This document shows positions 40,691 to 62,669 of a stretch of 64,000 nucleotides of DNA, in pieces (position 1 is the stretch's first letter; the number at the start of each line of letters is the position of its first letter). The notes under the pieces are model-generated. The model searched no databases, was not told the origin of the DNA, and worked only from the letters and a program-made list of their open reading frames with translations. The stretch is from Planctomycetota bacterium (lineage in GTDB: Bacteria > Planctomycetota > E44-bin39). The DNA lies in assembly GCA_004376375.1 (NCBI GenBank), contig SOJX01000079.1, forward strand, positions 1 through 64,000. Direction: 5' to 3'. A program made the position numbers and the translations under genes.

Positions 40691-40906
40691 ATGCCCAAGG
40701 AAGAGCCGATTGAGCTGACAGGCGAAGTGGTGGAGGCGTTGCCGAACACCCGCTTCAAGGTAAAGCTCGAGAACGGCCATCTGGTGCACGCGCACCTCTC
40801 CGGAAAGATGCGGCGATACAACATCCGTATCCTTCCGGGCGACAGGGTGCGCCTTCAGATGTCGCCTTACGACATAACGAAGGCGAGAATTGTATACCGC
40901 GAGTAG
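40691..40906 (+). CDS. infA: Translation initiation factor IF-1
   Basis: 71 aa S1-fold protein: [58 protein letters not shown]. Its TAG stop is the first three bases of a heptad array. Confidence 0.97.
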
Positions 40907-41007
40907 TGGTTAGTCGTTAGTGGTTAGTAGTTAGTAGTTAGTGGTTAGTGGTTAGTCGTTAGTATCTTTTTCTTCACTAACGACTAACGACAAACGACTA
41001 ACGACTG
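40904..41007. repeat. 7-base two-arm array (TAGTGGT/ACTAACG) from a stop codon
   Basis: Nine left heptads (TAGTGGT, TAGTCGT, TAGTGGT, TAGTAGT, ...), starting with the TAG stop of infA. A T-rich centre follows, then right heptads ACTAACG, ACTAACG, ACAAACG, ACTAACG. The array ends at the GGAGG ribosome site of rpmJ. Confidence 0.95.
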
Positions 41008-42780: not shown

Positions 42781-43806
42781 ATGCGTGTTCGCTGGAGAGA
42801 TTTCGAGCTCCCGACCCGCGTTGTGGTCGACGAGGCTTCGCTTACTTCCACCTACGGGATGTTCATCACCGAACCTTTCGAGAGAGGCTTCGGGACCACT
42901 GCGGGAAACGCCCTCAGGAGAGTACTGCTTTCCTCTCTCGAGGGATGTGCCGTCACGTCAATTAAAATCGAGGGCATTCTGCATGAATTTACCGCACTCG
43001 ATTATGTCTACGAGGACGTGACCGACGTCGTGCTGAGCATTAAGGACCTTCTCGTTCGCTTGAAGACCGGGAAGCCAACCACCCTGCGCATCGAGACCGA
43101 CCGCAAGGGGGACATTACCGCGGGCGACATTATCCACGATGAGAGCGTGGAAGTGCTCAACACGGACATGCACATCTGCACCGTGACGGAGCCGCACGAG
43201 TTCATCATGGAGATGGTCGTCGAGCGGGGGCGGGGGTACGTTACGGCCGAGGAGAACAAGCAGAATATCTCCGAGGTCGGCGTTATCCCGGTGGCGAGTA
43301 TCTTCTCGCCGGTGCAGCGGGTGCGTTTCCGCACCGAGGACACCCGCGTCGGCATGTTCACCAATTACGATAAGCTGATTCTGGAGATATGGACCAACGG
43401 CATTTTAACGCCCGACAACGCGCTGGTCGAGGCGGCGAAGATTCTCCGCAAGCACCTCAACCCCTTTGTACATTATTATGAGATCGGCCGCGAGCTGCAG
43501 CAGGCCGAGATCAAGGAGGACGAGGCCGCGCGCGGCGCAAGGGAGCGCGCCGAGCTTCAGCGGAAGCTCGACCAGAGCATTGCGATTTTGGACCTTTCGG
43601 TCCGCTCGAGCAACTGCCTGCGCGCCTCCAACATGACCCAGGTGCGCGAGCTCGTCTCGAAGTCGGAGCATGACATGCTTCGCATCCGCAATTTCGGGAA
43701 GACGTCGCTGCGCGAGATAAAGAAGAAGCTGACCGATATCGGGCTCTCGCTGGGGATGCCCAAGGAGCTTCTCGAACAGGAGCCCGTCGAGGAGAAGGCC
43801 CAATGA
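42781..43806 (+). CDS. rpoA: RNA polymerase alpha subunit
   Basis: 341 aa. N-terminal assembly domain (FGTTAGNALRRVLLSSLEGC, LHEFTALDYVYEDVTDVVLS) and C-terminal DNA-binding domain (LDLSVRSSNCLRASNMTQVR, LRIRNFGKTSLREIKKKL). Overlaps rplQ by four bases. Confidence 0.98.
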   Translation: MRVRWRDFELPTRVVVDEASLTSTYGMFITEPFERGFGTTAGNALRRVLLSSLEGCAVTSIKIEGILHEFTALDYVYEDVTDVVLSIKDLLVRLKTGKPTTLRIETDRKGDITAGDIIHDESVEVLNTDMHICTVTEPHEFIMEMVVERGRGYVTAEENKQNISEVGVIPVASIFSPVQRVRFRTEDTRVGMFTNYDKLILEIWTNGILTPDNALVEAAKILRKHLNPFVHYYEIGRELQQAEIKEDEAARGARERAELQRKLDQSIAILDLSVRSSNCLRASNMTQVRELVSKSEHDMLRIRNFGKTSLREIKKKLTDIGLSLGMPKELLEQEPVEEKAQ

Positions 43807-44453
43807 GACACCGGAAACGCGGGCGTAGACTGGGCAGAACGGGCGCGCACAGGAAAGCCCTGATGCGTAACCTGACAATCGCGCTTTTCGAGCACGGCAA
43901 AATCAAAACGACCGTTCCGAAGGCGAAGGAGGTTACGCCGTTTGCCCACAGGCTCATCACGCTTGCGAGGAAAGGAACTCTGCATCACAGGCGCCAGGCC
44001 GCAAGCCTTCTGCCCAACAAGGCTGCCGTCAAGAAGCTGTTCGACGAGATTGCACCGCAGTTCGCGGCGCGCAACGGTGGTTATACGCGCATTATCCGCC
44101 TTCCGCAGAAGAGACTCGGCGACGCCGCGGAAACATGCTACCTCGAGCTCATCGGCGACACCGCCCCTGTTTTGGGGAAGCGCAAGGGCTGGGCCAGAAA
44201 CCAGAGGCGCAATAAACGCAAGTTCAGAAGCGACGAGGACAGGGAACCCAAACCCGCCGCGGCGGAAGAGACGCCGCCCGAAGAGGAAGCTCCCGTCGAA
44301 ACCGAACCGGCTCCCGAAGCCGTAACCGAACCGGCGGCCGAGGCCGCTTCCACCGAGGAAGCCAAGCCGGAAGAAGAAAAGCCGGAAGAAAAAAAAGCGC
44401 CTGAAGAACCTCCCGAAGAGAAACCGGAAGAGGAGGGCGAAAAGGCGGAGTAA
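43803..44453 (+). CDS. rplQ: Ribosomal protein L17 with long acidic tail
   Basis: 216 aa, against about 120 usually. The core is typical (MRHRKRGRRLGRTGAHRKAL, MRNLTIALFEHGKIKTTVPK). From about residue 135 the protein is a low-complexity Glu/Pro/Ala tail (PPEEEAPVETEPAPEA and similar). Last gene of the superoperon. Confidence 0.95.
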   Translation: MRHRKRGRRLGRTGAHRKALMRNLTIALFEHGKIKTTVPKAKEVTPFAHRLITLARKGTLHHRRQAASLLPNKAAVKKLFDEIAPQFAARNGGYTRIIRLPQKRLGDAAETCYLELIGDTAPVLGKRKGWARNQRRNKRKFRSDEDREPKPAAAEETPPEEEAPVETEPAPEAVTEPAAEAASTEEAKPEEEKPEEKKAPEEPPEEKPEEEGEKAE

Positions 44454-45224: not shown

Positions 45225-45252
45225 TTGACTTTGGGTGCAATTTGCGTATTAT
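45225..45252 (+). promoter_or_regulatory. Sigma70-type promoter of the FDH-like operon
   Basis: TTGACT (45225-45230), 16-base spacer, TATTAT (45247-45252). It lies inside the longest open frame of the alpha subunit, which supports the inner TTG start at 45327. Confidence 0.65.
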
Positions 45253-45326
45253 ATGGGAGTTCTATCAATAAATCTGGCGAACATAACGGGATAGTATGTT
45301 CAGGCTTTAGTGGAAGGAGCGCTAAG

Positions 45327-48300
45327 TTGAACTTGTCAAGACGCGATTTCCTGAAGCTGTCTACAGCCGCACCGGTAGGTGCTTTTTGCCTGAGCTTGGG
45401 CATGAGTTCGACGGTCGAAGCGGCCAGGAAGAAGAGACGCAAGAAAGAGCAGTACTCGAAGAAGATCGAGGGATTGCAGCTCAAGAGGACTGTCTGCGGC
45501 GTTTGTCCCATTGGATGCGGTCTGGAAGTTCGAACAAGCGCGCAGAACATAGAACACGTGGAAGGCGACAAGCGCAACCCGATCAGCAACGGGCGTATCT
45601 GCTCCCGCGTGCTCGCATTGAGTTTTCTCAACCGCTCGATGGACCGGGTGGGTTTCGTGGCCGCGGCGGCTGCGATGGAAGCTGGAAAAGTGGTAGAAAA
45701 AGTAGAAGACCCATGGGAAGACCGAATCCGGCACCGGAAGCCCGGAGGTACTGACTGGGATGCGGCCAAGAAATGCCCCAAGGCCGGCAAGGCGATTCAG
45801 GAAATCGCTTCGAAGATTATCTCAACGCGCGGAACCGGCGAGACCTGTACTTCGATAGGTCTGATCGGCGGTCCCGGCATGACCAATGAGGAAGCCTACG
45901 CTGCGGCAAAATTCTGCCGCGGCCTCGGAATGCTTTACGTAGACTCTCCCGCGCGCAACGGTTATCTCCCGGCTGTGAAGGCGCTTGGCGAGTCGTTCGG
46001 CCGCATGGCGCCCACGAACCATCCGGGAGACATCGCGAATTCGGACTGCATACTCATAATCGGCGCGAATCCCGCGGTTACCCACCCTGTACTGATGAAT
46101 CACGTTCACAGGGCGCAACTGCGCGGGGCCAAACTGATCGTCGTTGATCCGCGCGCCACGGAGACGACAAGCAAGGCTGACATGCATGTAAGGCTTCTGC
46201 CCGGAACCGATATGGCGTTTATCGGCGGGATGGTCTATTCGCTGGTTCGCGGGCTCGATCCTTCGGCAAGATCGGCTGACGCGACCGTGAGTATTCAAAA
46301 CGAATATCTGCGCACCCATACCGACGCGATGTTCAAGATCAACAAGGATTTTGAAACAATCAAGAATCGCGGCATTTTTTCCGGATATGATCCGGATGCG
46401 CGCCGGTACGACGATTCAACATGGCGCTACCAGTTCGACCACAACGGCAACCTGAAAATCGGGGAGCCGAGAAGGGATTCGGTCGTCACTTTGAACAGGC
46501 TTGTGGAGAGTTTTTATCCGTTCCAGGACCAGCAGGTCGCGGACGTCTGCGGAATAGATGCAATGGCTCTCGAAGATGCAGTTGCCGTCTACCGCAGGAC
46601 CTGCATGAAAGGTGAGGCCGGCGCCGTAATTCTGGGCAACGGCGCGCTTTGCTCGACGAACGGACCCCAGGTCGCCCGCGCGGCGGCAATACTCCAGATG
46701 CTGCTTGGAAACATCGGTGTTGCGGGCGGCGGAATATATCCGCTTGCGGATTTCGGCAACGCGCAGGGCGTCATCGATAACGGGCTTGCAGCCGAGTTCC
46801 TTCCGGGTCATTTGCCGTATCCGACCGAAGACGACAAGACCATCAGCGAATATCTCGAGAACCATCTGGAGACCACGAAAGAGCCAAGGGCAAAGAACGA
46901 ATGGGCGCGCATGGGCGACTACCTTATCAGTTTACTCCGGGCCTGGTATGGCGGCAATACCGATCTGGAGCAGGCGTTCTCCTGTCTGCCGAAGCGCGCA
47001 AAAGGGGTAAACTACGGTTATAACGGCATTTTCGATGCGATTGAAGACGGGACCATAAGGGGACTCATCGTTTTCGGTGACAACCCCGCCGTAAGCGCGC
47101 CCGATGCCGACCGGGTGAAAAAGGCCCTAGCAAAGCTTGAGTGGCTTGTCGTTCTTGACATGGTGCAGAGTGAAACCGCGACCTTCTGGAAGGAAGCCGC
47201 GGGCGCCCAGACGGAAGTATGGCTCCTGAATGCCGCTTCTCCGCTTGAGAAGGAAGGCTCTTTCACCAACATGGGTCGGTGGATACAGTGGGCCAAAGCC
47301 GGGATCAGCGCGAGCCGGGTAGGCCCGACAATGAGAAGTGAACTCCAGGTTCTTACACGGCTGAGAGAGGCAATGCTCGCAGAGGCCCCCGAGAATTTCA
47401 AGAAGATGACCTGGGATTTCATGGATGCATTGCCTGCCCTGGTTGCCCGTGAAATAAACGGCTACAGCGGGAACAACAGGCAACTCAAGTCGTCGGCGGA
47501 TATAAAGGCGTCCGGTACCATTTGCGGCAACTGGCTTTATACAGGTTATTGTTCCCAGGACATCGACGCGGCGGCCGGAGTAATGCTGAGTGCGCCCTGC
47601 ATGGACCGCAACGGCGGGCAAAGCGAGTTGCAGACAAAGGTCGGCCTGTATCCGGCTTTTGCCTGGCGCTGGCCGAGCAACGTTCATGTTCTGTATAGCC
47701 GGGCTTCTCTGGACAGCGGCAACGTGTCCTGGAACGGCAGAAGGCGGCTTGCGATATTCAAGCCCGACGCTGAAGGCAAGCCGAACTGGCAGGACGACCT
47801 GGACGTTGTTGACGGCGGTACCGATACAAGTCCCCAGGATATCGCCCCGTTCACGTGCACACCGACCGGATTCGCGAAATTGTTTGCCGCGGGCATGCTG
47901 GACGGACCGTTCCCGGCATATTATGAGCCGTTTGATTACGACCGCTCGAACCAGATAGCGCCGAGTTTCCGCACTAATCCGCTGCTCCCTAAGGAACCCC
48001 CGGCAGATGAAAGCAAGTATCCATATCTGGGTGTCCTTTTCCATTTGCCGATGTTCTCTCACGGGTCCGCACGCGAGCGGGTGTTGCCGAACATTGCCGA
48101 AATCATGCCCGGCTTCTTCATTGAAGTCGGCGCTGACTTCGCCACGGAAAAAGGGTTGACGCGGCGCCAGAAAGTCAAGCTGAGCTCGCCGCGCCTGCCC
48201 GGCGGGGGAATAGAGGGCGAAATCCGCATAACCCGCAGGCTGAAAGCGATTGACGGGCGTCATGTTATCGGGATTCCCTGTGACTTCGGCGCTGCCGGTA

Positions 48301-48401
48301 GAATCGTAGGTGGAAGCGGAGCCGCCCTTGCTCGAAGGGCGTGCGATCCGAATACATACGGCGCGGAATGCCGGTTTTTTGCCTGTAACCTGGACAAATA
48401 A
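45327..48401 (+). CDS. Formate-dehydrogenase-like molybdopterin subunit lacking the Sec/Cys ligand
   Basis: 1024 aa from TTG 45327 (AAGGAG seven bases before), which gives a Tat signal at once: NLSRRDFLKLSTAAPVGAF. The frame continues 45 codons upstream but contains the promoter there. A [4Fe-4S] site is present (Cys57, 60, 64, 92). The rest follows FdnG closely (GLGMLYVDSPARNG, DIANSDCILIIGANPAVTHP, AKLIVVDPRATETTSKADMH). Where FdnG has Sec-His, this protein has Gly212-Tyr213, and the Arg of the RGxxNxQG motif is Ala474. So all three catalytic residues of formate oxidation are changed. It probably still binds the Mo/W cofactor, but the metal ligand and substrate are open. First gene of an operon with Fe-S and cytochrome subunits and fdhE. 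Confidence 0.85.
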   Translation: MNLSRRDFLKLSTAAPVGAFCLSLGMSSTVEAARKKRRKKEQYSKKIEGLQLKRTVCGVCPIGCGLEVRTSAQNIEHVEGDKRNPISNGRICSRVLALSFLNRSMDRVGFVAAAAAMEAGKVVEKVEDPWEDRIRHRKPGGTDWDAAKKCPKAGKAIQEIASKIISTRGTGETCTSIGLIGGPGMTNEEAYAAAKFCRGLGMLYVDSPARNGYLPAVKALGESFGRMAPTNHPGDIANSDCILIIGANPAVTHPVLMNHVHRAQLRGAKLIVVDPRATETTSKADMHVRLLPGTDMAFIGGMVYSLVRGLDPSARSADATVSIQNEYLRTHTDAMFKINKDFETIKNRGIFSGYDPDARRYDDSTWRYQFDHNGNLKIGEPRRDSVVTLNRLVESFYPFQDQQVADVCGIDAMALEDAVAVYRRTCMKGEAGAVILGNGALCSTNGPQVARAAAILQMLLGNIGVAGGGIYPLADFGNAQGVIDNGLAAEFLPGHLPYPTEDDKTISEYLENHLETTKEPRAKNEWARMGDYLISLLRAWYGGNTDLEQAFSCLPKRAKGVNYGYNGIFDAIEDGTIRGLIVFGDNPAVSAPDADRVKKALAKLEWLVVLDMVQSETATFWKEAAGAQTEVWLLNAASPLEKEGSFTNMGRWIQWAKAGISASRVGPTMRSELQVLTRLREAMLAEAPENFKKMTWDFMDALPALVAREINGYSGNNRQLKSSADIKASGTICGNWLYTGYCSQDIDAAAGVMLSAPCMDRNGGQSELQTKVGLYPAFAWRWPSNVHVLYSRASLDSGNVSWNGRRRLAIFKPDAEGKPNWQDDLDVVDGGTDTSPQDIAPFTCTPTGFAKLFAAGMLDGPFPAYYEPFDYDRSNQIAPSFRTNPLLPKEPPADESKYPYLGVLFHLPMFSHGSARERVLPNIAEIMPGFFIEVGADFATEKGLTRRQKVKLSSPRLPGGGIEGEIRITRRLKAIDGRHVIGIPCDFGAAGRIVGGSGAALARRACDPNTYGAECRFFACNLDK

Positions 48402-48415
48402 CTTCGGGACAACTC

Positions 48416-49507
48416 ATGGCAACAAAACGTAAACGAGGTGGAAGGCGGCGCAAGAAACGTAAGATCGGTCCCGGGTATGCGATGCTCGCCGATATGAGCC
48501 GTTGTTCGAACTGCGGCACGTGTATGATGGCCTGCAAGGAGTATAACGACCACCCGCCCGAAACCACGGAGCTTACTCCGACGGGAGTCAATCCGCCTGA
48601 CATCTCTTCCCGGTCGGTGCTGGCGATTCATGCCTTTGAATCGGTGTTGAGGGGACAGCCGTACGTACGGTTCCAGCGGGTTTCCTGCTACCATTGCGGG
48701 CGCCCGGCGTGCCATATGGTGTGCCCTGTTCCCGATTGCATCACCATCGACGTCAAGACCCGGGCCGTGATCATGGATGAGACGCGGTGTGCAGGCTGCC
48801 GTTTCTGCGTGCACGCCTGCCCGTTTGAAGTGCCCAGAATGGGCCAACACCCTGAAGTCAAGGACCGGGATGTAGCGATAAAGTGCAACTTCTGTTACGA
48901 CCGTCTGCGCGCGGACCTGAAAATGCGGCCTGCATGCGCAAGGGCCTGCCCCACGGGCGCGCTTATTTTCGGCAAACGGAAAGACGTCGTAGAAGCGGCC
49001 GAGTCGCGTCTCGCCGCACTGAGGAATACGTTCGGCCAGGAAATCGGCGGGCGCAGGTATCTGTCTTACGGCATGGATATCGACCAGAACCTTTTCGGAC
49101 TCGGTATTTTCATGATCCTCGAGGAGGAGCAGACCAAGGATTACCGGCGTTTGGCGCTCATTCCCAAGGTCCCGGCCGCCGTTTCCAGCTGGAAGGGCTT
49201 GTTCCGGTGGACGGCCGCAATTGTCCCGGGGATTGTAATCGTTTTCGCGTTCCTCCATTACATGATTTTCGGCCCGCTCGGCGTTCACGTCGTAGAAGAG
49301 GAAGAAGAAAAAACATTTGACGAAATGACGCCGGAAGAGCAGACGGAATTCGCGGAAAAGATGGAACGCCAGTTCAAGATGAAACAGAAAGCGGGAAAGG
49401 CCAAACGCCTCTATCAGCCTATGCCGATCCGCCGCGCGAGGAAAGGCGGCAAAGGAAGGGACAAAGGGAGGGGGAGAGGGCGCGGCCCGCGCCGCCGCCG
49501 CAGGTAA
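48416..49507 (+). CDS. FdnH-like Fe-S subunit with membrane helix and basic tails
   Basis: 363 aa. Four [4Fe-4S] clusters of the HybA/FdnH type: CSNCGTCMMAC (from Cys30), CYHCGRPACHMVCP, CAGCRFCVHACP and CNFCYDR...CARACP. One membrane helix lies near residue 270 (TAAIVPGIVIVFAFLHYMIF), as in FdnH. It carries electrons from the Mo subunit to the cytochrome. Unusual are a very basic N-terminus (KRKRGGRRRKKRK) and a very basic C-terminus of about 25 residues (GRGRGRGPRRRRR). Starts 15 bases after the alpha gene. Confidence 0.85.
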   Translation: MATKRKRGGRRRKKRKIGPGYAMLADMSRCSNCGTCMMACKEYNDHPPETTELTPTGVNPPDISSRSVLAIHAFESVLRGQPYVRFQRVSCYHCGRPACHMVCPVPDCITIDVKTRAVIMDETRCAGCRFCVHACPFEVPRMGQHPEVKDRDVAIKCNFCYDRLRADLKMRPACARACPTGALIFGKRKDVVEAAESRLAALRNTFGQEIGGRRYLSYGMDIDQNLFGLGIFMILEEEQTKDYRRLALIPKVPAAVSSWKGLFRWTAAIVPGIVIVFAFLHYMIFGPLGVHVVEEEEEKTFDEMTPEEQTEFAEKMERQFKMKQKAGKAKRLYQPMPIRRARKGGKGRDKGRGRGRGPRRRRR

Positions 49508-49515
49508 TTCAGAAC

Positions 49516-49593
49516 CAGTTATTCAGTTATTCAGTTATTCAGTTATTCGGTTCTTCAGTTATTCGGTTCTTCGGTTGTAAGGAGCTTCGCGCA
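49516..49593. repeat. 8-base array (CAGTTATT/CGGTTCTT) plus short tail
   Basis: Eight octads in exact phase: cagttatt x4, cggttctt, cagttatt, cggttctt, cggttgta. They are followed by aggagcttcgcgca; 12 bases of its reverse complement occur at 52981-52992. One arm. It lies between the beta and gamma subunit genes. Confidence 0.92.
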
Positions 49594-49653: not shown

Positions 49654-50847
49654 ATGGCAAGAAGAAGGAAAACCCGGCGAAGAACCCGCGTCAGACGCCC
49701 AAGCGGTAAAGAGGGTAAAGAGGGAAAAGAAAAAAGGCGCTCACAGAAGGTCGAACGCGTTGACATGGTCGTCATAACGCCGAAAATGCACCGCGTTGTG
49801 CACTGGATGACGGCGATTGCCTTTTTCTTCACCGCACTTACCGGCATGTTTCATTATTACAGGGTTCCCATCGTCCCTGAGGCGCTTGGCAGCGTATACG
49901 CGCTCGGCTGGGTTCATTTTGGATTCGGCGTGGCCTTTTTCGCCGGCATGGTTCTGGTGTTCCTCATCTGGGGTTTCCGGTCGCTTGCCTTCGGCCCTAC
50001 TGAATTCGCCTGGTGGCGCGAAATGGGCGGATACGCAAGAAAATTTGCCAAACCACCGGCAGCCTACCGTTTCAACGGCGGGCAAAAACTGTTTACTCTT
50101 TTATTGAGCCTGGTTTCACTCCTGCTCTTTGCATCCGGTGTCGTCATGAAGTTCTGGTATCTCGTCATGCCGGGCCAGCTCGGACTTGTTAATACGGCGT
50201 CAATGCTGCATGTTTTCATGGTCACCATCATTCTTTCGATACTTCTCTGGCATTTATATTTTTCCGGCATCGCCACCCCGGGCCGGATGGGCGCCATGTG
50301 GGGCGGTCGGGTGACGAAAGAATTCATGGAGCTTCATCACTCGATGCTTGATCTCGGGAAGCTGGGCTCCCGCGAGGAAGCGCTCCGCAAGCGCAGGGAA
50401 GAGGAGCTCAAGCGTAAGAAGGAAAGGATGAAGTCTGCGCGTGAGTCGGGACGCATTTCAGACAGGGCCAGGGCGATCGGCAGCGGTAAACTCAAGGGCA
50501 GGGGCGGCAGCACGAAGTTTAAGGGGCTGAAGCGGAAAAGAAAAGAAGCTCCTCCTCCCGAGGAAGAAGTAATCGAAGAAACCCCTGAGGCCAAGATGGA
50601 GCCGGCGGTCGCTGAGGCGCCTCCCCAGGCGGCGGGGCCTGACGCGGGCATGGACTTCGACGAGGCCGAGTTCGAGGATGCGGAAGAGGCGTCCGGGTTT
50701 TATGAGGAAGATTCCGGCGGAGCCGCTGACGAGCTGGTTTATGAAGGCGAAGAAGAAGTGATAGAAGCCGAAGCGGTGGAAGTGGAAGTGGAAGTGGAAG
50801 AGGAAGAGCCGGACGAAGATCCTGAACCGAAACCGGACGAATCCTAG
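49654..50847 (+). CDS. FdnI-like cytochrome b subunit with basic head and acidic tail
   Basis: 397 aa, about twice the usual length of FdnI. Residues 30-230 have four membrane helices with conserved His (KMHRVVHWMTAIAFFFTALT, VHFGFGVAFFAGMVLVFLIW, LHVFMVTIILSILLWHLYFS, ELHHSML), the b-heme and quinone site pattern of FDH gamma subunits. The N-terminus is strongly basic (RRRKTRRRTRVRRPSGKE). From about residue 235 there is a long linker, first basic, then strongly acidic (VEVEVEVEEEEPDEDPEP). The acidic tail could pair with the basic tails of the beta subunit. Confidence 0.82.
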   Translation: MARRRKTRRRTRVRRPSGKEGKEGKEKRRSQKVERVDMVVITPKMHRVVHWMTAIAFFFTALTGMFHYYRVPIVPEALGSVYALGWVHFGFGVAFFAGMVLVFLIWGFRSLAFGPTEFAWWREMGGYARKFAKPPAAYRFNGGQKLFTLLLSLVSLLLFASGVVMKFWYLVMPGQLGLVNTASMLHVFMVTIILSILLWHLYFSGIATPGRMGAMWGGRVTKEFMELHHSMLDLGKLGSREEALRKRREEELKRKKERMKSARESGRISDRARAIGSGKLKGRGGSTKFKGLKRKRKEAPPPEEEVIEETPEAKMEPAVAEAPPQAAGPDAGMDFDEAEFEDAEEASGFYEEDSGGAADELVYEGEEEVIEAEAVEVEVEVEEEEPDEDPEPKPDES

Positions 50848-50996: not shown

Positions 50997-51033
50997 TAGA
51001 TTTGTAACGCTCGACCAGTTTGTGGAGTTCCTG

Positions 51034-51966
51034 ATGCCGCTTTCGCGTGAAGAAATCCTGGCCAGAAAGCAGGAACTGATTGACCGTTTCGGGGAATGGA
51101 CCGCGCACAACATAGACCTCGGCTACGGAATCACGACAAGGACGCCCGATATCAGGGATACGGGCAAGCTGTGGCGGATAATGCAGTTTGTCTCGGACGT
51201 GTTCGGCGAGGATCTCTCGGGTATTCGCGCGCTGGACCTGGCCTGTCTCGAGGGACAGTATGCCGTTGAGCTTGCCATGCGCGGCGCGGACGTTGTCGCG
51301 ATAGAAGGCAGGGAAGGGAATATCGAGAAAGCCCGCCTGGCCGGGGAATGTCTCGAGCTGGAAAACCTTTCGTTCCATCTGGACGATGTCCGGAATCTTT
51401 CCGCTAAAAAGTACGGCAAGTTCGACCTGGTGTTCTGCATAGGCATATTCTATCATCTCGACGCGCCTGACGTTTTTCATTTTGCAAGGTCCATCGCCGA
51501 ATGTACGACGAAGTGGGCCGTCTTCGATACCAATTACGCCCTGCGGCCCCGCCAGTTTCGTGAATTTGGCGGCAAAAAATATTACGGCGTGTCGTACCGG
51601 GAGCATAAGACCGGAAAAACGGAAGAAGAAGTTGATAAAGACGTCTGGGCTTCCCTGGATAATCCGGAATCGTTCTGGCTGACCCGCGCGTCGCTGGTGA
51701 ACCTGCTTTCGGACATGGGGTTTAAAACCGTCTCCGAGTGCCACTATCCCGTGGCGTATCACGGAATAGGCGACAGGCTTACGCTGTTTGCGTCAAAGGG
51801 CGCTCAAACCGAGCTGCGGATCGACCCGGATGACGTGCCAGTGGTAAAAAAAATGTCGCAAAGGCCCGCAGGGTTTGTTTCGAAGTGCCAGATGAGCGCG
51901 CTCGAGCGGTTTGCGCGCAGAATTGTCCCCCGCGCTTTCAAGAATTTCCTGCGCCGTCTGCGTTAA
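51034..51966 (+). CDS. SAM-dependent class I methyltransferase
   Basis: 310 aa from ATG 51034 (GGAG six bases before). The Rossmann core is clear: ALDLACLEGQYAVELAMRGA (motif I), VVAIEGREGNIEKARLA, and KFDLVFCIGIFYHLDAPDVF (motif IV). It resembles the CmoB/DUF1698 group and similar methyltransferases with a basic C-terminus. Its target is unknown. It lies between the cytochrome subunit and fdhE, which is not a known position for a methyltransferase, so it may modify the complex or be unrelated. The start is separated from the gamma subunit by an octad array. Confidence 0.8.
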   Translation: MPLSREEILARKQELIDRFGEWTAHNIDLGYGITTRTPDIRDTGKLWRIMQFVSDVFGEDLSGIRALDLACLEGQYAVELAMRGADVVAIEGREGNIEKARLAGECLELENLSFHLDDVRNLSAKKYGKFDLVFCIGIFYHLDAPDVFHFARSIAECTTKWAVFDTNYALRPRQFREFGGKKYYGVSYREHKTGKTEEEVDKDVWASLDNPESFWLTRASLVNLLSDMGFKTVSECHYPVAYHGIGDRLTLFASKGAQTELRIDPDDVPVVKKMSQRPAGFVSKCQMSALERFARRIVPRAFKNFLRRLR

Positions 51967-51982
51967 TGACTGGAGGGCTTTC

Positions 51983-52843
51983 GTGTCCGTTTACGAGCCT
52001 GCACCGGATATCGCGCTTGCACTCGCCGCAAAGGAAGAATTCGCGCACGCCGAGGATTTGCTGCGCGCGTTTGCGCGGGTGCTTCCGCTTCGGGACGCCC
52101 TCCGGACGGAAACTAAAATCAGGCGTGCCGATTTTCCCCGCTCAGAGCTCGAAAAGCTTTTCCTCAAAGGCGAACCGGTCAGGTATCACGGGAATTTCAG
52201 GCTTGGCACGGAGCTTCTTGTGAGTCATTCGAAAGGTTTCCTGGACCTTTTCACCGAGATTAACAGCGGTGCGTGGGCGGCGAATCGGGACGCGATATGC
52301 AGGGATGATTTCCCGCTGGCCGAAATGTTCGAGTCTTTTGTCGAGGAGAAACTCGAGCCGCTTGAAAAAGCGGCCGAGGGCCAGCCGTTTTCATTGCCGG
52401 TCCTGGCTTCGTTTCTGCAGCAGGTGCTGAAGGGGTGGTTTATCGCTTTTCGCGACGCGGTCTGGCCCGAATTGCCCATGCACGCCTGGGGCAAGGGGTA
52501 CTGCCCCGTGTGCGCCTCGTTTGCGGCGATGGGGGAGCGCGACGGGGAGGGGAACCGCAATCTGTTCTGCCACCTGTGCGACACCCGGTATCCTTACCCT
52601 TGGGGCGAGTGCCCCATCTGTGCGGACCCGGCCGCATCGATAAAAGTCCTTGAACTGCCTGAAAAGGCCGGCTATACGCTGGCGCTCTGTGAGAAATGCG
52701 ACTGCTACGTGAAACACGTCGACAGGAGCCGCGTTCCTGATGCGCCCGCGTATCCTTTTGTCGACCTGGTCACGTTCGATATCGACGTTCTGGCCCAGAA
52801 GCAGGGATACAAGAAGCCGACGCTTTCAAGTTTCGGCATTTAA
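51983..52843 (+). CDS. fdhE: Formate dehydrogenase accessory protein FdhE-like
   Basis: 286 aa from GTG 51983 (GGAGGG before it). The C-terminal half has the rubredoxin-like Cys pairs of FdhE: YCPVCASFA, LFCHLCDTRY, ECPICAD and LCEKCDCYVKHVD. The N-terminal half is helical. FdhE is needed for active respiratory formate dehydrogenases in Enterobacteria, where it acts on the Tat-exported Mo subunit. Its presence here ties the divergent alpha subunit to that family and argues that it is a working complex. Confidence 0.85.
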   Translation: MSVYEPAPDIALALAAKEEFAHAEDLLRAFARVLPLRDALRTETKIRRADFPRSELEKLFLKGEPVRYHGNFRLGTELLVSHSKGFLDLFTEINSGAWAANRDAICRDDFPLAEMFESFVEEKLEPLEKAAEGQPFSLPVLASFLQQVLKGWFIAFRDAVWPELPMHAWGKGYCPVCASFAAMGERDGEGNRNLFCHLCDTRYPYPWGECPICADPAASIKVLELPEKAGYTLALCEKCDCYVKHVDRSRVPDAPAYPFVDLVTFDIDVLAQKQGYKKPTLSSFGI

Positions 52844-53107: not shown

Positions 53108-55438
53108 ATGACGGAAGTAAGTCGGGAAAAACTTCAGGAAATGCTCGCAGGCGGGCATGCGCTCAAAGGCCTCGACCTGTCCGGTGGGAATTTTGCGGGC
53201 CTGGACCTGTCCGATGCGAACCTCAGCATATGCAACCTCAAGGGCTCCGACCTCTCGGGTGCAAACCTAAGCCGCGTAAACCTGACCGGCGCCAACCTCG
53301 TCGGCGCCAACCTATCCGCCGCCAACCTGGAAGAAGCGGTGTTTGAGCTGGCGAACCTGACGAACGCCAAACTGATCGGCTCCGATCTGCGCCGCGCCGA
53401 TTTCTCCCGTGCCCAGTTGAAGAACGCCGATTTCGAACAGGCCAACCTGTTCAAAGCCAAGCTCTATGACCTCAACCTCGAAGGCCTGAACCTGACTGAA
53501 ACCAATCTGTCGATGACGAGTTTTCAGCACTGCAACCTGAAGGGCGCGACTTTCAGGCGTTCGCACATTGTGGCGACGAACTTCCGCAAGGCGGACCTCT
53601 CGGGCGCGGTTTTCGACAACGCGATAATCAAGAAGCCTAATTTCACCGGCGTCGACATGAAGAAAGTTTCCCTTGCCAATGCGAAAATAGAGGAGCTGGA
53701 TTTCGCACAGATCTCGCTCGGGGGCCTCGACCTTTCGGGTTGCAGCCTCGAGGGGAAAAATCTTTCCGGCGCGGATTTCAGGGGCGCAAAGCTGCACGGC
53801 GCCAATTTGAGTGAAGCGAATCTGAGCGGGGCGAATTTTTCGAACGTTGACCTTACCGGTGTGCAGGCTAACGGGGCGGATTTTTCCAGGGCAAAGCTTG
53901 AAGGAGCCAACTTGACGCGAGCCAGCCTGGAGAATGCACGGTTTTCGGACGCGGTGATGAAAAAGACACTCTGCCTTGAAGCTTCCGCGGCGGAGGCCAG
54001 CTTTGTGGGAGCGGATCTTACTTCCACCGATTTTTCGCGCGCAGACCTCGACGGCGCGGATTTTACTTCCAGCCGGCTCGAGAATACCGTTATGTCGTCG
54101 GCAAAGGCGAATGAGGCCATGTTTGCGGAGGCAACATTCAAACAGGCGAATATGGAAAAAGTGGATTTTTCGCATAGTGAATGCGGTGGTGCGCTTTTCG
54201 ATTCTGCAGACTTGAGGGGCTCGAAGTTTACCGGCTCAAACCTCACCCGTGCAACGTTCCTGAACTGCAGGATGGACAAGATTGCACTTGACAAATGTAA
54301 TCTTCATGAGGCCAAGTTAAATCGCGCGATACTCGTCAAGGCTGATATGACGGATGCTCGCCTGTCGAAGGCCCAGCTGCTCGAGGCCAAACTGAAAAAC
54401 GCGCATCTCGCAGGGGTGGACTTTTCGGATGCCGATCTGACAAAAGTTGATCTGACGGGCGCCGATTGCACGCGGGCGAATTTCAGCCGGGCGCGACTAC
54501 CCGGAGCAATTATCACGAAAGCAACGCTGATCGAGGTCGATTTCACCGGCGCTGATCTCGAAGGCGTCAACCTGGGCCGAATCTCCGATGAAGAATTGCT
54601 TACGATAAAAGGGCTTGATGAAAGCAAGGCCGGTGGAACACCGGCGTCCGCCGCGGGGAAAAAACCTTCCGCAAAGCCCGCGGAAAAACCGCCGGTGGAG
54701 ACGGCCGGGCAACAGGCCGTCTTATCGGAGAAAATCCCCGTTCCCGATTCGCCGACGCCTCCTTATCCGCTTCCGCCGCAGGTTGTGGTTCAGCGCTCGG
54801 TGGGCAAAAGCATTCTGGAAAGTTTTATTAACACTCTGACTTTCGAGCTTGACAACGCATACCTTCTTTCCAGCGACCTAGAGGGTATTTTTCACGATAT
54901 GAGTTGGATGTTCAACAAGGTTATCTGTACGAGGGAGGGGCTGCCGAGCTCCGACCTTATTCCGGAAAAGAGCAAGCTCCAGGTCCGGCAGATTTCTTCA
55001 GGACCTATTTCCACGATCGTTTTCGGCGAGCCGCCCCGCAAGGGCATCAGGCTCGCCGACATCAGCGAATCAAACCTCATGCAGGTCTCGGCCCTCGCGG
55101 TGATGAGCGCGGTCTTCAAAAGCGTCGCCGGGTACAATTTCGAGTCGTATAACCGGATGTCCAACAAGCTCAATTTCTTCCAGACCAACCAGGTGACCGC
55201 GGGTGGAGGGATGTCGATCCCCGATAAGATGCACCGGGAGATGCAGAAAGTGCAGGAGTCGTGGAAGGGACTTACCGAAAAGGTCTATTCCTGCCTCGAG
55301 ACCGTTTTCCTTTCCGTGCGCGAGAAGGAGATACGCGAATTCATCGAGAAAGTGCTTTTGATGATCGCAAACTGGGTCGCCCGCTCGAACTTCACGGCCA
55401 TCTTCATCGACGGCTCCGTCATCAAGGAAAAACGATAA
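53108..55438 (+). CDS. Very large pentapeptide-repeat protein
   Basis: 776 aa. From residue about 18 to 500 it is almost pure pentapeptide repeat with the pattern A(D/N)LxX (LDLSDANLSICNLKGSDLSG, ANLSRVNLTGANLVGANL, and so on), about 95 repeats. These would build a right-handed square beta-helix of over 20 turns, longer than most of the family. A Pro/Lys/Ala linker follows (EKPPVETAGQ). A C-terminal domain of about 200 residues (LESFINTLTFELDNAYLLSS to FTAIFIDGSVIKEKR) comes last, not recognised. No signal peptide, so probably cytoplasmic. Start ATG 53108. A TATAAT-like box is at 53080-53085. Confidence 0.85.
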   Translation: MTEVSREKLQEMLAGGHALKGLDLSGGNFAGLDLSDANLSICNLKGSDLSGANLSRVNLTGANLVGANLSAANLEEAVFELANLTNAKLIGSDLRRADFSRAQLKNADFEQANLFKAKLYDLNLEGLNLTETNLSMTSFQHCNLKGATFRRSHIVATNFRKADLSGAVFDNAIIKKPNFTGVDMKKVSLANAKIEELDFAQISLGGLDLSGCSLEGKNLSGADFRGAKLHGANLSEANLSGANFSNVDLTGVQANGADFSRAKLEGANLTRASLENARFSDAVMKKTLCLEASAAEASFVGADLTSTDFSRADLDGADFTSSRLENTVMSSAKANEAMFAEATFKQANMEKVDFSHSECGGALFDSADLRGSKFTGSNLTRATFLNCRMDKIALDKCNLHEAKLNRAILVKADMTDARLSKAQLLEAKLKNAHLAGVDFSDADLTKVDLTGADCTRANFSRARLPGAIITKATLIEVDFTGADLEGVNLGRISDEELLTIKGLDESKAGGTPASAAGKKPSAKPAEKPPVETAGQQAVLSEKIPVPDSPTPPYPLPPQVVVQRSVGKSILESFINTLTFELDNAYLLSSDLEGIFHDMSWMFNKVICTREGLPSSDLIPEKSKLQVRQISSGPISTIVFGEPPRKGIRLADISESNLMQVSALAVMSAVFKSVAGYNFESYNRMSNKLNFFQTNQVTAGGGMSIPDKMHREMQKVQESWKGLTEKVYSCLETVFLSVREKEIREFIEKVLLMIANWVARSNFTAIFIDGSVIKEKR

Positions 55439-61763: not shown

Positions 61764-61821
61764 GTACCGAGTACCGAGTACCGAGTACCGAGTACCGAGT
61801 ACCGAGTACCGAGTACCGAGA
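61761..61821. repeat. 7-base array (ACCGAGT) from a stop codon
   Basis: taggt, then eight heptads ACCGAGT in near-perfect phase. It begins at the TAG of asnA. One arm only, and the most uniform array in the window. Confidence 0.92.
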
Positions 61822-61844
61822 ACCAAGCACCAGGTACTGACTAA

Positions 61845-61956: not shown

Positions 61957-62559
61957 ATGGCGGAAGACCTGGATAGAGATCGGGAACGGGAACTGGTGCG
62001 CCTGGCCAAGAGCGGCGATAAGGAGGCTTTCGGCGCGCTCTTTACCGCTTATCGTGAAAAGGTTTACGCAGTCGCCCGCAAGTACGTGAAAAACCGGGAG
62101 GCTGCGCTCGACATCGTGCAGGAGGCGTTTCTTCGCGCCTTTCGCAGCATCGGCAGTTTCAAGGGCGATTCGCTTTTTTACACCTGGGTCGTGCGGATCG
62201 CGATAAATCTGGCAATCGACGCCGGGCGCAGAAAGCATGCCGACGGCAATATCCCGTTCGACAAGTACGTCGAAGGCGGCGATATCCGCCCGGTAAAGGA
62301 ACGCCCGGCCCAGAGTCCGGGCGAGGCTGCGGAACTGAGCGAAATGGAAGAAGCGCTGGCCAGGGCGATAGAGGAGCTTTCGGAAAACCACCGCGGCGTT
62401 TTCCTGCTGCACGCGGCCGAGGGACTGGCATACAAGGATATAGCTGAGGCGCTCGGGATATCAATCGGCACGGTGATGAGCCGGCTGCACTACGCGCGGA
62501 AAAAGCTGCGCGAAATGCTGGCGGGACATCTGGGACGATCAAGGTTCGTAGGTATGTAG
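61957..62559 (+). CDS. ECF-family RNA polymerase sigma factor
   Basis: 200 aa. Region 2: LFTAYREKVYAVARKYVKNR, EAALDIVQEAFLRAFRSIGS, FYTWVVRIAINLAID. Region 4: ALARAIEELSENHRGVFLLH, GLAYKDIAEALGISIGTVMS, RLHYARKKLREML. No region 3. An anti-sigma gene follows, separated by a 16-unit octad array. Its last codons (RFVGM) lie inside that array. Confidence 0.93.
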   Translation: MAEDLDRDRERELVRLAKSGDKEAFGALFTAYREKVYAVARKYVKNREAALDIVQEAFLRAFRSIGSFKGDSLFYTWVVRIAINLAIDAGRRKHADGNIPFDKYVEGGDIRPVKERPAQSPGEAAELSEMEEALARAIEELSENHRGVFLLHAAEGLAYKDIAEALGISIGTVMSRLHYARKKLREMLAGHLGRSRFVGM

Positions 62560-62669
62560 GTTCGTAGGTTCGAAGGTTCGAAGGTTCAAAGGTTCGAAAG
62601 TTCAAAGGTTCGAAGGTTCTTTTGAACCTTCTAACGTTCTAACTTTCTAACCTTCGAACCTACAAACCT
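62542..62669. repeat. 8-base two-arm array, sixteen units in perfect phase
   Basis: Ten left octads (aggttcgt, aggtatgt, aggttcgt, aggttcga x2, aggttcaa, aggttcga, aagttcaa, aggttcga, aggttctt). Six right octads follow (ttgaacct, tctaacgt, tctaactt, tctaacct, tcgaacct, acaaacct). It starts inside the sigma gene. AGGT/ACCT boxes are complementary. Confidence 0.96.

Follow-up and report, generated by a model that had tools for sequence, protein, structure and literature searches.

The closest described counterparts of the complex reported here are the formate dehydrogenases FdnGHI of E. coli (PDB entry 1KQF) and the periplasmic DvFdhAB of D. vulgaris (6SDR). Formate oxidation in such enzymes relies on a Sec or Cys that ligates the metal, a catalytic His and an Arg that grips formate, and in DvFdhAB a Thr (T450) also contacts formate (PMC9820355). 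These residues are U192, H193, R441 and T450 of DvFdhAB, where R441 is the Arg of the segment ALRGESNVQG and its number was counted from the alignment with the protein described below. Within the same DMSO reductase superfamily, the arsenite oxidase AioA has been called unique in having no amino-acid ligand on its metal (PMC10100899). QrcB of the Qrc menaquinone reductase and ActB of alternative complex III are homologues of molybdopterin subunits that have lost catalysis within membrane electron-transfer complexes and carry no Mo/W cofactor (PMC6303296, PMC13059093).

We analyzed a window of 64,000 nucleotides from an uncultured, deep-branching planctomycete, which contains a gene cluster of the FdnGHI type (Table 1). 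The PLA46 probe target occurs without mismatch in a 16S fragment of this genome, pointing to Planctomycetota. The alpha gene is an uninterrupted frame of 1024 codons with TTG as its start codon. It lies directly downstream of the rpsM–rpsK–rpsD–rpoA–rplQ region, and a binning error is therefore unlikely. As the original prediction had stated, its product aligns from end to end with E. coli FdnG (E = 4e-114, residues 1–1024); the PDB match to DvFdhAB covers residues 1–1021 (E = 4e-129). The same prediction was right about the Tat signal (TIGR01409 above cut-off), the [4Fe-4S] site, whose four Cys ligands are all present in the alignment, and the FdnH-, FdnI- and FdhE-like partners, all of which were found beside the alpha gene. 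In its full-length alpha subunit, Tat export, cluster ligands and FdhE neighbour the locus thus resembles FdnGHI and DvFdhAB, and FdhE commonly neighbours canonical fdnG in Planctomycetota. In contrast to FdnGHI, all three subunits score under the curated FDH-N cut-offs; the best NCBIfam model for alpha is FDH-N alpha (TIGR01553), with 546.8 bits against a cut-off of 814.2. A single-sequence AlphaFold2 model of the alpha subunit had a pLDDT of 36.

Table 1. Features of the alpha gene and its cluster; positions are those of the window.
Feature	Position	Strand	Basis or remarks
Sigma-70-like promoter match TTGACT-16-TATTAT upstream of alpha gene	45225..45252	+	Consensus scan 10/12; suggestive only
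Shine–Dalgarno GGAAGGAG, a few bases 5' of the alpha TTG start	45312..45319	+	Read from sequence
Alpha subunit, FdnG-like molybdopterin oxidoreductase, 1024 aa	45327..48401	+	Tat RR residues 5–6; [4Fe-4S] Cys57/60/64/92; triad lost
Gly212-Tyr213 codons, in place of Sec/Cys-His of formate dehydrogenases	45960..45965	+	Alignment; U/C-H in 83/83 homologues
Ala474 codon, in place of formate-binding Arg (DvFdhAB R441)	46746..46748	+	Alignment; R in 83/83 homologues
Ile483 codon, in place of formate-contacting Thr (DvFdhAB T450)	46773..46775	+	Alignment; T in 83/83 homologues
Beta subunit, FdnH-like, four [4Fe-4S] sites, C-terminal membrane anchor PF09163, basic tail	48416..49507	+	1KQF chain B E 2.5e-38; Pfam
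Gamma subunit, FdnI-like cytochrome b (PF01292), basic N-terminus, long acidic C-terminal tail	49654..50847	+	1KQF chain C E 8e-10
SAM-dependent methyltransferase-like gene inside cluster	51022..51966	+	Pfam PF13649 and others
FdhE-like accessory protein, CxxC at 198, 220, 234, 260	51911..52843	+	TIGR01562 E 1e-6, under curated cut-off

Unlike FdnGHI and DvFdhAB, the alpha subunit has none of the pocket Sec/Cys, His, Arg and Thr. The original prediction had placed Gly, Tyr and Ala at the first three of these positions, and the ungapped, well-anchored alignment agrees; where a Cys, Sec or Ser at the metal was looked for, Gly212 was found. Misalignment was considered and ruled out, as the ligand and Arg regions both align ungapped and the retained R451 corresponds to another conserved Arg, not to R441. 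Of five residues highlighted in the DvFdhAB pocket, four (U192, H193, R441 and T450) are in this way absent, and Q480, equivalent to DvFdhAB Q447, is retained. The Lys that bridges the Fe–S cluster and the pterin is replaced by Arg94. The K44R variant of E. coli FDH-H is only partially inactivated (PMC12176258).

The rarity of these losses was assessed in about 60 relatives, none closer to the window genome than the same phylum, and in 392 genomes of Planctomycetota, 399 genomes from the phylum to which a Brucella locus belongs and 95 from that of a Candidatus Methylomirabilis locus. The comparison set comprised 83 FdnG-type proteins from three phyla (Sec in 57, Cys in 26), among which a few rows are overlapping copies of one gene and outside which some further matches lie; the alignments were not trimmed. 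The U/C-H-R triad is intact in all 83. Only two relatives in the sample are without it, both from Planctomycetota: G038:C63 (locus L006), with Ser-Cys-Leu at the triad positions, and G008:C54 (L007), with Ser-Ile-Val and a 3' end that runs off the contig. Since these two belong to other families, a single sequencing or assembly error is unlikely. The replacements in the window, G038 and G008 proteins read G/S/S, Y/C/I and A/L/V at the triad and I/C/S at the T450 site, so that the same four DvFdhAB pocket residues are missing from all three and present in the 83 others. One FdnG-type protein with the triad (L127, G841:C83) has three of its four Fe–S cysteine columns not aligned to Cys, which may reflect a wrong start or a misaligned N-terminus.

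The window, G038 and G008 proteins form one clade (SH-aLRT 100), and any two of them still group when the third is left out of the tree; we are unsure of the inner branching order, given the long branches. The members are pairwise 37–39% identical, about the same distance as separates them from canonical enzymes. Distant molybdopterin paralogues carry Cys/Sec in 100% of cases and His and Arg in 83%, which indicates that the triad is ancestral and was lost later. G038 has both types: besides the protein without the triad it encodes a normal Sec enzyme, on a separate contig (L048). A scan of genome contigs with the alpha protein alone returned distant matches only, and a search of viral contigs returned one relative, partial. 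The open-access literature yielded no account of an FdnG-type protein lacking the triad.

Conservation was scored at 177 positions that are constant in 95% or more of the 83 canonical proteins; 128 of 176 are kept in the window protein and 137 of 176 in the G038 protein (73–78%). All three members have lost the same 23, which include the formate-pocket positions 212, 213, 474, 475 and 483, as well as 216, 227, 251, 436, 437, 472, 786, 811, 865, 986 and 987. The Tat arginines and the four cluster cysteines are invariant in the clade. The cofactor site was assessed at the 67 positions that FdnG-type proteins share by conservation with 18 distant molybdopterin paralogues; the window protein keeps 50 of them, G038 49 of 66 and G008 42 of 58. 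G246, N248, P254, D274-P275-R276, G293, T617 and E641 are retained in the window protein; G246, N248, P254, the DPR segment and G293 are the kinds of positions that hold the guanine dinucleotides, and most such positions survive. The superfamily-conserved residues R906, H986 and N999 of the C-terminal cap, intact in FdnGHI and DvFdhAB, are changed in every clade member that can be read there. In other formate dehydrogenases this cap stabilizes the MGD (PMC10869683), and the three residues probably contact the pterins. No new polar residue common to the clade is found at the metal in the alignment, where the only clade-specific polar residues are E490, at the site of the DvFdhAB tunnel residue H457, and E525.

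ActB served as a control for loss of the cofactor, since nothing above cut-off was found for QrcB in the genomes searched. Six ActB proteins from Planctomycetota keep 16–23 of about 51 aligned positions and have neither the Fe–S cysteines nor the DPR segment. By these counts the clade is far nearer to cofactor-bearing proteins than ActB is, though not untouched: judged by sequence, the window protein differs from ActB in keeping the Fe–S cysteines, the guanine-site motifs and more of the cofactor-site positions.

The partner subunits retain the wiring expected of FdnGHI. The beta subunit, which resembles FdnH down to its membrane anchor, has all 16 FdnH-type cluster cysteines, and its 17 Cys residues are all shared with the G038 homologue; it scores under the TIGR01582 cut-off. 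In the gamma subunit, which scores under the TIGR01583 cut-off, H50, H88, H186 and H200 align with the four haem His of FdnI (1KQF chain C), and an NGGQK sequence aligned to FdnI NAGQK preserves the N-x-G-Q-K motif. The G038 gamma subunit has Phe at the first haem His position. The alpha–beta–gamma gene order is kept in both genomes where visible. Both also share a basic N-terminus and long acidic tail on gamma and a basic C-terminal stretch on beta, and the long charged tails of beta and gamma set the window complex apart from FdnGHI. Long acidic C-terminal tails occur on ribosomal protein L17 [43803–44453 (+)] as well as on the gamma subunits [49654–50847 (+) and L053:10003–11145 (−)], and may be characteristic of these lineages rather than of the complex.

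In the gene list and Pfam assignments of the window, no partner through which electrons could enter, such as a cytochrome c or an NrfD-type subunit, adjoins the alpha cluster. Directly after the FdhE-like gene, positions 53108–55438 (+) encode a 776-residue protein made up largely of pentapeptide repeats, followed by a distinct C-terminal region. Intergenic stretches contain many short tandem arrays built from units of 7 or 8 bases (53 repeat-finder rows across positions 1–64000), for example at 40904–40963, 49516–49576, 61764–61824 and 62541–62619, with units that include GTACCGA (8.7 copies) and CAGTTATT (7.6 copies); one array sits between the beta and gamma genes. A 28-base repeat in three exact copies occupies positions 1–83 at the contig start. 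Elsewhere in the same genome, G000:C93 (L001:625–3459) encodes an ordinary Sec-containing formate dehydrogenase of the NAD type with an in-frame TGA, and the genome thus still appears to use selenocysteine. This protein belongs to the same superfamily as the window alpha subunit; unlike it, G000:C93 keeps Sec-His and the Arg of an NPLRGQNN segment, has N-terminal ferredoxin-like domains and lacks a Tat/FdnH/FdnI context.

Because every residue known to handle formate is lost while the electron wiring is kept, another function is very probable, and on the sequence evidence the window complex is very probably not a formate dehydrogenase. Oxidation of formate by a different mechanism, through metal–sulfido chemistry alone, would fit the overall architecture, the FdhE neighbour and the retained Q480, but it is most unlikely when the equivalents of U192, H193, R441 and T450 have gone from three of three members and persist in 83 of 83 other proteins. 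A decaying or relaxed copy without function could account for the long branches and for active-site residues that vary freely inside the clade. We consider this very unlikely: the frames are open in three lineages at about 38% identity, the window and G038 proteins hold to roughly three quarters of the conserved positions, the beta cysteines and (in two genomes) the gene order are conserved, and a Shine–Dalgarno sequence is present. That the three members form a single clade at this divergence points to an old loss in genes that are not decaying. Coordination of the metal by another residue of the window protein can be judged in the same way. In type II (NarG-type) enzymes an Asp serves as the Mo ligand, and D206 lies six residues ahead of G212. 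The acidic residue at this site is, however, no new feature, being Asp or Glu in 78 of the 83 canonical Sec/Cys enzymes, and an Asp ligand is therefore unsupported. The residue preceding the ligand position (N/D/S in the three members) offers no common choice, and with Ser in the relatives and Gly in the window protein at the ligand position itself there is no common new ligand; such coordination is very unlikely. The original prediction is thus well supported in its claim that formate chemistry was lost without gene decay, given the joint loss of the triad in a three-member clade with intact partners. Its proposal of another substrate is possible, and its suggestion of Asp207 (in fact D206, followed by S207) as a replacement ligand is unsupported.

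The loss of superfamily-conserved cap residues makes a non-catalytic large subunit a serious alternative. The alpha subunit would then have no working Mo/W cofactor and would instead give structure to a quinone-linked complex or relay electrons within it, in parallel with QrcB and ActB, with electrons passing from another periplasmic protein via the alpha or beta clusters to the quinone, or in reverse. In favour of this, the formate pocket has been lost in its entirety along with several conserved residues of the cap, and the pocket replacements differ between the three members, as expected without selection for chemistry. On the other side are the retained four Fe–S cysteines, bridging Lys/Arg and guanine-dinucleotide motifs, which ActB has lost, and the lack of an adjoining cytochrome c, NrfD-type or other electron-entry partner in the window; Qrc and alternative complex III differ further in that the membrane partner here is a cytochrome b and not an NrfD-type protein. 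Such a subunit is quite possible, and we slightly favour an oxidoreductase for another substrate over it.

This preferred reading, which we hold tentatively, is that an FdnGHI-type complex with Mo/W-bis-MGD oxidizes a substrate other than formate, with no protein ligand on the metal in the window protein. An old planctomycete clade would have lost the metal-ligating Sec/Cys and the catalytic His together with the Arg that grips formate and the Thr that contacts it, leaving a Tat-exported, membrane-bound complex that does not oxidize formate. The alpha subunit would retain Mo/W-bis-MGD, with the metal in the window protein free of an amino-acid ligand as in AioA, and would oxidize a different small molecule in the periplasm, probably uncharged or cationic. 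An anionic substrate seems disfavoured because the carboxylate-gripping Arg is gone (Ala/Leu/Val) and the clade shares Glu490 near the former tunnel. Electrons would pass from the alpha [4Fe-4S] cluster to the quinone by way of the four clusters of beta and the two haems of gamma. We count in favour of an active enzyme the retained Fe–S cysteines and Lys/Arg94, the 50 of 67 cofactor positions, the adjacent FdhE-like gene, the complete beta cluster cysteines, gamma haem His and NxGQK motif of the window, and the ordinary NAD-type Sec formate dehydrogenase in the same genome; against it count the altered R906, H986 and N999, the lack of a shared polar residue at the metal and the Phe of the G038 gamma subunit.

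The likeness to AioA would lie in the Gly at the ligand position, from which no amino-acid ligand is expected. AioA was not among the PDB matches; the window sequence is of the FdnG type, and no Rieske subunit AioB occurs among its neighbours, which are FdnH- and FdnI-type partners with methyltransferase and FdhE-like genes instead. It is possible, although we consider it somewhat doubtful, that the complex represents an independent, second instance, within the DMSO reductase superfamily, of a Mo/W-bis-MGD site that works without an amino-acid ligand, one derived from a formate dehydrogenase scaffold, coupled to quinone via an FdnHI-type module and acting on another substrate.

Annotated automatically, this protein would probably be named a formate dehydrogenase, and an uncultured planctomycete lineage would be credited with the use of formate or the reduction of CO2, against what the sequence indicates. 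An active complex would mean that the FdnG scaffold can serve a new purpose once Sec/Cys, His and Arg are gone, with consequences for the roles assigned to these residues and for the question of whether a protein ligand is required in bis-MGD enzymes. An inactive one would represent another route by which a molybdopterin subunit without catalysis is retained in a respiratory complex.
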